From Treponema sp. (GTDB lineage Bacteria > Spirochaetota > Spirochaetia > Treponematales > Breznakiellaceae), in assembly GCA_031254315.1 (NCBI GenBank), contig JAIRUQ010000029.1:1-44491 (forward strand): 44,491 nucleotides of DNA, read 5' to 3'. The notes under the pieces were generated by a model. The model did not search any database. It was not told the origin of the DNA and saw only the letters and a program-made list of their open reading frames with translations. Numbering within the stretch: position 1 is the first letter of the stretch; each line of letters begins with the position of its first letter. The translations under genes and the position numbers were made by a program. This document shows, one piece after another, positions 42,841-44,491 of the stretch.

Positions 42841-43602
42841 ATGCGGTTTAAGAGAAATTTTTTAATTTGCACTGTGCTAATATTATTTCTGTCTTGTTTT
42901 GGCAACAAAAAGGATGTTCCGGTAGAAGAAACGGTAGGCGTGAAAATAGCGCAAAGTGCCTCAAACATACCTCTTTCAATAGAAGAAGTAAAGGAATTGA
43001 TATATAAGAAGGATGACTATTTAAAAGAAAATAGTTATCTTGAAATTACTTTTCTTGAAAAGGCAAATTTCGGAATACCGGGGGGAGATAATTGGATTGT
43101 TCGATTGAGTGACAGGATGATACTAATTTATGCAATTGATAGTAACAAAATAGTGAAAAGATATGATTTTACAAGTTTTAACCCTGAGCGATACAGCACT
43201 TTTGATATAATGCGCGATATACCCGGCAAACATATAGAAAGTTCAAGCAGTTCTTTTGGAGATTTCAATGGCGATGGCATAGATGAAATATTCGTATATG
43301 GGTTTTATGGTCGTGCTTTTGAAATAAAAATTTGGGGTTATGATTTGGCAAATGATGACTTTTTATCACATCCATATTGTAGCATACCTTTCTGGCTCAT
43401 TGATTCAGATAACGGACCCGCCCCGGTAGAGTTTATGACTTACCGTGGTATGTATGGGTTTAAGGTGTTTTTTTATCAATTAGATGTGGCAGGAGGCCCC
43501 GGCTATGTTTACGAGCCAAACCCTAGAAATGGGAAATGGTTTTTCTACACATGGGACGGGGAGCAAAGGGAGTATGTGGAAGTCGGGGAAGTAATTGAAT
43601 AA
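42841..43602 (+). CDS. FG-GAP-like hypothetical lipoprotein, paralogue of 12185-12946
   Basis: The 253-residue protein has a lipobox near LFLSC19. A charged N-terminal part (about 40-120) is followed by DFNGDGIDEIFVYG, a Ca2+-loop FG-GAP/VCBS-type motif, and EIKIWG. Length and motif order match the lipoprotein at 12185-12946. The function is unknown; a surface-exposed binding module is plausible. It has a private consensus promoter and is directly followed by an attC-like repeat (43615 onward), the arrangement of a promoter-bearing gene cassette. No ribosomal or metabolic genes are linked to it. Confidence 0.75.
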   Translation: MRFKRNFLICTVLILFLSCFGNKKDVPVEETVGVKIAQSASNIPLSIEEVKELIYKKDDYLKENSYLEITFLEKANFGIPGGDNWIVRLSDRMILIYAIDSNKIVKRYDFTSFNPERYSTFDIMRDIPGKHIESSSSSFGDFNGDGIDEIFVYGFYGRAFEIKIWGYDLANDDFLSHPYCSIPFWLIDSDNGPAPVEFMTYRGMYGFKVFFYQLDVAGGPGYVYEPNPRNGKWFFYTWDGEQREYVEVGEVIE

Positions 43603-43614
43603 GACGGTGATGAA

Positions 43615-43729
43615 GCATGGCATGGGAGCGAATGGTCTAGCCATGTGTACCACTGATCGCTCTTGCTCTTTTAATTGCCGCGTAAGCGGCTTCCCCGCGT
43701 TTACAATCCTGTTATGTGCAATACGCCCC
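43615..43729 (+). repeat. Degenerate attC-like repeat, right end preserved
   Basis: This GC-rich patch shares three parts with the repeat at 44321-44491: GCATGGC followed by a variant of GTGGGAGCGA (43615 on), CTAGCCATG (43637-43645), and the mini-hairpin GCCGC-GTAA-GCGGC (43677-43690). It ends in GTTATGTGCAATACGCCCC (43711-43729), whose last 14 bases are the exact inverse of 44321-44334. GTTATGT resembles an integron simple site (GTTRRRY). The matching left arm is not visible, so this copy seems decayed. Confidence 0.55.
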
Positions 43730-43742
43730 TTTTATATAATAC

Positions 43743-44264
43743 CTATTTTGGTATTTTTATAAAATATATTGCACAATTAGCCAACGCTGGGATTGCATTA
43801 CTTTTTTGATCCCATATTTCAATAAAAAATGTTATATTATTATCTATATTCATTATTTTTTCATTTTTAGGATATTGTAAACCAGTAAATGGAATTACAA
43901 TCATTCCCAAAATATTATCAATAAATATATCCTCTTTAATATGTTTAATTATATTATCAAATCTTATTTTTTCTTCTAAGCCTATTAATTCGTCCATTGA
44001 ATAAAATATTATCATAGTATTTTCTATAATAATTTTGTTATAATAATCTACATCTTTTATATCAAATTTTGAAATTATTGGGTTAAAATCATTTGACAAT
44101 GAATGATTTGCAAAATATTTATAAACACTTGCATTATTTCTATATAAAATATTAGAATTATATTGAAATGTCTCTTTATAATATGATCTACTATTTGAAC
44201 ATGATGAATATCCAGAAAATAATAAAATCACCAAAAATCCATAAAAAATGTTCCTAAAAATCAT
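43743..44264 (-). CDS. Hypothetical lipoprotein inside a repeat-bounded unit
   Basis: The 173-residue protein has a lipoprotein signal (MIFRNIFYGFLVILLFSGYS then SC22). An AT-rich coding region follows, with many Asn, Ile and Lys and no recognised domain. AAGGAG precedes the ATG, and TTGACA/TATTAT lies upstream (44284-44312). The gene is flanked by 14-bp perfect inverted repeats (43716-43729 and 44321-44334) and by two related GC-rich palindromic elements. It therefore looks like the cargo of a cassette, transcribed against the direction of its neighbour. Confidence 0.7.
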   Translation of the reverse strand: MIFRNIFYGFLVILLFSGYSSCSNSRSYYKETFQYNSNILYRNNASVYKYFANHSLSNDFNPIISKFDIKDVDYYNKIIIENTMIIFYSMDELIGLEEKIRFDNIIKHIKEDIFIDNILGMIVIPFTGLQYPKNEKIMNIDNNITFFIEIWDQKSNAIPALANCAIYFIKIPK

Positions 44265-44283
44265 ATTTTGATCTCCTTAAATT

Positions 44284-44312
44284 ATAATATCATTTTTATT
44301 ATTATTTGTCAA
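44284..44312 (-). promoter_or_regulatory. Promoter of the lipoprotein gene at 43743-44264
   Basis: On the minus strand TTGACA (44307-44312), a 17-base spacer and TATTAT (44284-44289) precede AAGGAG and the ATG at 44264. It begins 8 bases inside the right 14-bp inverted repeat, so the unit carries its own promoter. Confidence 0.6.
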
Positions 44313-44320
44313 TAGCATTT

Positions 44321-44491
44321 GGGGCGTATTGCACCTAACGTTCCGGTTGTATATGACGGTTTGGCAACCCGAATAAGGGCTTGCGTAGCAAGACCATGGT
44401 TGCCAAACTGTGGGTGGAGCATGGCGTGGGAGCGAGCGTAGCGCGACCGACCTAGCCATGCGGAACCCTAGCCGCGAAGCGGCGTACATAT
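44321..44491 (+). repeat. Large attC-like palindromic element, cut by window end
   Basis: The element opens with GGGGCGTATTGCAC then CTAACGTTCCGG. It holds nested stems: GTTTGGCAACC/GGTTGCCAAAC (44359-44369 and 44398-44408, perfect), GCATGGC/GCCATGC (44419-44425 and 44455-44461), and GCCGC-GAA-GCGGC (44471-44483). The last bases (GGCGTACATAT) begin to mirror the left arm GTATATGACGG but with one extra A, like the extrahelical base of integron attC sites. ACCTAAC (44333-44339) fits the RYYYAAC box. It is much more GC-rich than its surroundings. The right arm should lie just beyond the window. Confidence 0.6.

Follow-up and report, generated by a model that had tools for sequence, protein, structure and literature searches.

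A gene cassette at a contig end of a Treponema genome and the probable integron-like system behind it, with a tyrosine recombinase lacking I2

Integron gene cassettes are best known for the spread of antibiotic resistance. The end of a contig from a Treponema sp., where a lipoprotein-like gene lies between two structured elements, raised the question whether a system of this kind is at work here and which recombinase would serve it. The window, i.e. the whole stretch of DNA analyzed, is one complete contig (G000:C46, 44,491 bp) from a genome assembly of 3.10 Mb and 127 contigs (completeness 100, contamination 5.85). An earlier note had described two related GC-rich elements around the gene in AT-rich DNA, and these are present: they share direct repeats (43611-43631/44415-44435, 90%; 43628-43654/44443-44469, 70%) and an inverted repeat of 19 nt (43711-43729/44321-44339, 95% complementary), and the DNA between them has a GC content of about 20%. 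The arms of the inverted repeat, thought to differ by one extra base, actually differ by one mismatch located in the R box. The predicted folding of the right element surpassed that of 200 out of 200 shuffled sequences (z -4.2). Judged from sequence, we consider it probable that the structure in the window is the end of a cassette array belonging to an integron-like system run by a tyrosine recombinase without I2 (a 'patchless integron'), and possibly to one that predates I2.

The cassette unit (43711..44339, minus strand) extends from the core GTTAGGT on the right to the inverse core ACATAAC on the left. Read along the minus strand, the core site R' at the cassette start (GTTAGGT, 44339-44333) is followed by GCAATACGCCCC, a promoter (TTGACA-N17-TATTAT, 44284..44312, matching the consensus at 11 of 12 positions), an ORF of 173 codons (43743..44264) whose product has by eye a lipoprotein-like N-terminus, GGGGCGTATTGC, the inverse core R'' (ACATAAC, 43717-43711) and half of an attC-like site. 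By convention, the cut is expected between G and TT of the core GTTAGGT. The start arm of the terminal inverted repeat (44321..44339) reaches 12 nt past the R box, and the end arm occupies 43711..43729. Gene direction and spacer asymmetry place the cassette on the minus strand, so that the left element is the lipoprotein cassette's own attC-like site (43603..43717, minus strand). According to the alignment with copies on contigs C27, C100, C56, C119 and C30, its L'/R' half is missing: homology breaks off at about 43603, next to the stop codon of an oppositely directed gene of 253 codons (42841..43602, plus strand; weak FG-GAP match below the Pfam cut-off), which abuts the broken site at the array end. 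With half of its attC gone, the cassette is probably stuck. The right element (44333..44491, minus strand; 93% identity to C27:15888-16061 and 91% to C100:23211-23373), whose R'' side is lost at the contig end, is by its sequence the putative attC of the next cassette.

Within its cassette, the lipoprotein-like gene, called reversed in the earlier note, has the usual direction. The private promoter that had been proposed is found in this cassette, but not as a rule: the 34 cassettes of a relative with a closed genome (G009) scored 8.74 compared to 8.56 for resampled sequence. For the 173-aa ORF, no Pfam or NCBIfam family was matched and no counterpart was present in the other genomes among 195 of the family; its own genome has a 28% match on C109. 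A scan for cassettes with matched ends, which uses end complementarity only and ignores position 4 past the R box (see below), gave a single match in the whole window, the cassette 43711-44339, and the window holds this one cassette only. A core-like GTTAGGTGATAT where the M48 peptidase gene ends (42586) was dismissed as chance, with seven such motifs in the window and 7.45 in shuffled sequences. At 2040-2059, the 3′ end of an attC (AATATACAACCGGAACGTTA, differing from the family by one mismatch) occurs on its own, the remainder of the site being absent.

Copies of the elements were counted genome-wide, as the earlier note had suggested, and related ones do exist elsewhere: a 932-bp query gave 16 matches including itself, on many contigs and in part as fragments. 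Several lie at contig ends, as expected of repeats that break assemblies. The attC 3′ end occurs 12 times with at most three mismatches, the reversed control once. Intact copies have the closed form RYYTAAC-AGGA-TTGTATATG...CATATACAA-CCGGAAC-GTTRRRY, or nearly so, with internal hairpins. Beyond the point matching position 44491 they continue on the plus reading as CATATACAATCCTGTTRRRY; the continuation that the earlier note had expected, ACAACCGGAACGTT, is the other arm on the other strand. On C30, three further attCs of a different sequence type are arranged in tandem.

The absence of an integrase gene from the window was confirmed in that the contig carries no recombinase, and it is not joined to C30 or C52, the contigs that encode the two tyrosine recombinases of this genome (frame of 444 aa and 395 aa, respectively; 74% identical). 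Both adjoin cassettes and attC-like sites, toward which they are transcribed, as is the integrase in known Treponema integrons described in the available parts of PMC3607928. Because of the contamination of 5.85, one of the two may come from another strain. A search for intI, also suggested earlier, gave no match in the genome above the cut-off of the integron integrase model; the two enzymes reached about 193 and 194 bits with TIGR02249 (cut-off 265). The match of the integron model to both is split in two, and the IntI-specific region in between stays unmatched. In comparison to the integron integrase of Vibrio cholerae (PDB 2A3V), 18 residues stand in place of the 60 of the region holding I2. 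In an alignment of 68 proteins (36 patchless enzymes, 30 canonical treponemal IntI and two Xer-like proteins), the IntI-specific insert is absent from all 36 patchless enzymes, both genes of this genome included, and present in all 30 canonical ones. Scores also stayed below the cut-offs of the curated XerC and XerD models (179-187 and 167-170 bits, cut-offs 335 and 330) and, narrowly, of the archaeal XerA-type model NF040815 (204 and 209.7 bits, cut-off 220). Two further Xer-like genes are located on C18. In contrast to Xer recombinases (archaeal XerA, PDB 5HXY and 4A8E; XerC/XerD), the patchless gene stands at the head of an array of cassettes, together with attI-like and attC-like sites. 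The predicted structure was of moderate quality (pLDDT 73.8, pTM 0.49), with 2A3V and archaeal XerA as best structural matches, and the absence of a helix in it was not used as evidence. At the N-terminus, the enzyme at L036 756-1943 and its relatives are extended by about 120 aa that include an invariant W within a GxWD/GxxWD-like motif, and no Pfam match was obtained there in the patchless enzymes; a similar extension was seen by eye in canonical treponemal IntI.

Arrays headed by the recombinase were found in relatives, 80 of 557 of which were taken into the contig scan. Downstream of the recombinase gene (L071 844-2073), the closed genome G009 has an attI-like core at 2226 and then a run of sites, 34 within 37 kb according to a structural rule. 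The 3′ end of the main attC type has 33 matches genome-wide, of which 31 lie in one orientation within 38 kb downstream of the recombinase; the 20 kb upstream contain no sites by the strict rule. One cassette is present twice with different neighbours (88% identity over the full length). A second closed genome, G141, likewise has recombinase, attI-like core and attCs. In a third one (G139, 3,855,671 bp; L072), the recombinase match is only partial and no attC-like array was present in 20 kb, which likely represents a decayed system. In 18 of 34 loci, an attI-like core follows the recombinase gene within 900 bp (0.9 expected), compared to two loci with one upstream; the motif used gave none in the other 16, some of which have little or no downstream DNA. 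Contig C52 of the present genome also has such a core. A compact case is Saccharibacillus kuerlensis, with recombinase, attI-like core and three attCs between small ORFs. A scan for repeat clusters, which missed this array although it is visible as direct repeats, yielded clusters in 4 of 90 loci and none in shuffled sequences. Many first cassettes in L041-L087 share a CTAAA or CCCAA motif about 15 nt past the core.

The sites of the patchless systems contain the parts by which an integron attC is recognized, i.e. R and L stems with RYYYAAC and GTTRRRY. They were compared with canonical sites by detectors for straight or singly bulged 8-bp L stems; since the first version found no sites in canonical arrays, the search was rerun allowing bulges on either arm. 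Of six canonical regions examined in the order, five then yielded 36 sites, all with one extra base inside the L stem and none straight, and the sixth yielded no site; L219, a canonical region of the window's family, gave no attC in any detector mode. The 17 strict sites of G009, in contrast, all have straight L stems and none has a bulge inside L, while 13 of them also allow a one-base bulge at the L/spacer edge, where it would sit on the other arm than in canonical sites. Other patchless loci and those of the present genome, 435 kb together, gave 22 unbulged sites compared to 0.3 in shuffled sequences (bulged: 12 versus 6.7 and 17 versus 8), and in 96 loci beside patchless recombinases elsewhere 23 compared to 0 (bulged: 21 versus 16 and 16 versus 8). 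In known integrons, I2 contacts the extrahelical base (PMC4792948, PMC7790495, available parts). Judged by the sequences, this contact is absent from the patchless systems on both the protein and the DNA side. The earlier proposal of an integron-type cassette is thus borne out by attC-like sites, matched ends, an attI-like core and a tyrosine recombinase heading the relatives' arrays, but the assignment to the type of T. denticola is not, as there is no IntI above the curated cut-off, the recombinases lack the IntI-specific region and the attCs lack the extrahelical base.

A second difference concerns the cassette ends. In G009, the two ends of a cassette are complementary past the R box at 8.9 of 12 positions, those of different cassettes at 4.8; in four canonical arrays, the match of own ends was 2.5-4.0 versus about 2.9. 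Position 4 past the R box is mismatched in 32 of 33 G009 cassettes, with A at the start and C at the end, so that the top strand is left with an A-C mismatch where the bottom strand forms a G-T wobble. The matched-end scan recovered 52 cassettes in the loci of the window's family, 51 with the position-4 mismatch, and nine in the present genome, eight with it, the exception being the window cassette; in shuffled versions of all these loci, those of the relatives and of the present genome combined, there were 0.67 matches per set. In 90 loci around wider relatives, there were 17 matches, 13 with the mismatch (2.0 expected by chance), or 12 of 16 if L119, whose contig is also in the relatives' set (L065/L082), is not counted separately. 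The 13 include Bacillota, Bacteroidota, Patescibacteria and Spirochaetota. No matched-end cassettes were obtained in 36 canonical loci or in the control loci. Among 25 rows from 15 hand-chosen sources, 24 had the position-4 mismatch and one G/A, some Fusibacter rows reusing one start. In calculated folding energies, the bottom strand was the more stable one in every one of the 33 circles simulated for G009 (mean -7.0 kcal/mol) and in 28 of 34 canonical ones.

These features suggest how a patchless cassette might be exchanged. On the bottom strand, once folded, the enzyme would bind to both arms, the extended R and the straight L, and exchange strands at G/TT of GTTRRRY. The choice of strand would not depend on an I2 helix reading an extrahelical base, but on the extended R stem, with its bottom-strand G-T wobble and top-strand A-C mismatch, and on unequal spacers (3-4 versus 6-7 nt). 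Exchange may also take place as ordinary double-stranded DNA. As its cargo, the window cassette has a private lipoprotein-like gene under its own promoter.

The absence of I2 could be ancestral or derived. Two trees, with 103 and 63 recombinases, placed the IntI that have the insert in a single clade (support 100; 100/100) that excludes the patchless enzymes, and the patchless recombinases of the window's family in a separate one (97; 100/96). Array-bearing enzymes of Bacillota, Bacteroidota and Patescibacteria fell outside the IntI clade when the tree was rooted on the two Xer-like proteins of the present genome. The trees contained 16 of the 36 patchless and 12 of the 30 canonical alignment rows and omitted wide loci lacking a clear motif pair, plus another five by name; for the more careful tree of 63, 40 of the 103 rows were dropped by hand. 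With several weak backbone branches and a root resting on two long branches, this topology speaks for lack of I2 being the older condition. Such a system could also have arisen if an IntI had secondarily lost I2 and the extrahelical base had decayed along with it. The uncertain root leaves room for this, and canonical treponemal IntI and patchless enzymes have in common an N-terminal extension with a GxxWD-like motif (by eye) and a gene direction toward the array. Against it stand the exclusion of the patchless enzymes from the IntI clade and the occurrence of the same site signature beside patchless enzymes of several phyla, and we regard a derived state as unlikely. It is conceivable, though we would put it slightly below an even chance, that patchless integrons form a widespread class in Spirochaetota, Bacillota, Bacteroidota and Patescibacteria, with hairpin cassette sites, no I2 and no extrahelical bases, in which the strand is picked by a G-T wobble conserved in the extended R stem (the other strand having A-C), and which descends from a stage before I2.

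A different possibility is an orphan attC cluster (CALIN), whose cassettes were moved in trans by a canonical IntI that is now lost, the nearby recombinase being unrelated. CALINs are common (PMC9668308, available parts), and canonical IntI do exist in the order: the IntI model at E ≤ 1e-45, run as positive control, matched 75 of 291 genomes, 67 of them above the curated cut-off. This stringency and the cut-off were used since TIGR02249 is unspecific at low stringency, where it matched all 14 control genomes. However, none of 48 genomes carrying a patchless gene had a canonical IntI at E ≤ 1e-45 (the controls were also silent), L stem, spacers and end complementarity set the sites apart from canonical ones, and the recombinase stands at the head of the array, which makes the orphan cluster quite improbable. 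The patchless family itself is present in 70 of 195 genomes of the window's family (E ≤ 1e-40), and more distant relatives in 87 of 392 genomes of the phylum. Least of all do we expect a dispersed repeat (MITE, terminator or structured RNA gene) with chance neighbours: the copies in this genome are scattered over many contigs and partly fragmentary, but the sole Rfam match (E 0.84) is unrelated and below the cut-off, ends match within and not between cassettes, a whole cassette has been duplicated, and the single-orientation array of the closed genome G009 largely refutes this reading.

The patchless integron, as the preferred reading, resembles the chromosomal integrons of T. denticola and T. 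succinifaciens (PMC3607928, available parts) in a recombinase directed toward the array, RYYYAAC...GTTRRRY sites, small strain-specific cassette genes and attC lengths that can exceed 100 bp. It differs in lacking both the specific region of their IntI and the protruding G of their attC, and in the extended R-box complementarity with its fixed mismatch. Its hosts include relatives of termite-gut treponemes, for which the available parts of PMC3607928 report no integron. The integration of CTXphi by XerCD (PMC4792948, in part) likewise involves a hairpin site without extrahelical bases and an enzyme without I2, but CTXphi brings neither a recombinase nor a cassette array. Integrons as such have been reported in Firmicutes, Bacteroidota and Spirochaetota (PMC8618304, available parts). 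In a literature search outside subscription journals and preprints, we found no description of patchless integrons. The literature presents I2 as defining, as required for an integron to be active and as the novelty that opened the way to recombination of single strands; its origin has been described as a chicken-egg paradox (PMC4792948), for which PMC7790495 notes a lack of intermediates. If natural arrays have at their head recombinases devoid of I2, and attCs without the base that I2 reads, this origin would become directly testable, and descent from a pre-I2 stage, if true, would provide the missing intermediate. Tools that require an IntI-specific profile (PMC9668308, as far as available) would miss such systems or file them as orphan attC clusters.

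One member of the order (G227) carries both a canonical IntI and a patchless relative in the same genome (C33, C11; L099, L206), and L206 161-1092 is a matched-end cassette with the position-4 mismatch. On C94 of the window's genome (L031, about 590-843), a short element with inverted ends (GAGACTGTCGGAAAAGT...) comes after the right half of an attC-like site, which ends in CCTGTT, and before CGTTAGGTG; this looks like a small transposon inserted at a core site.
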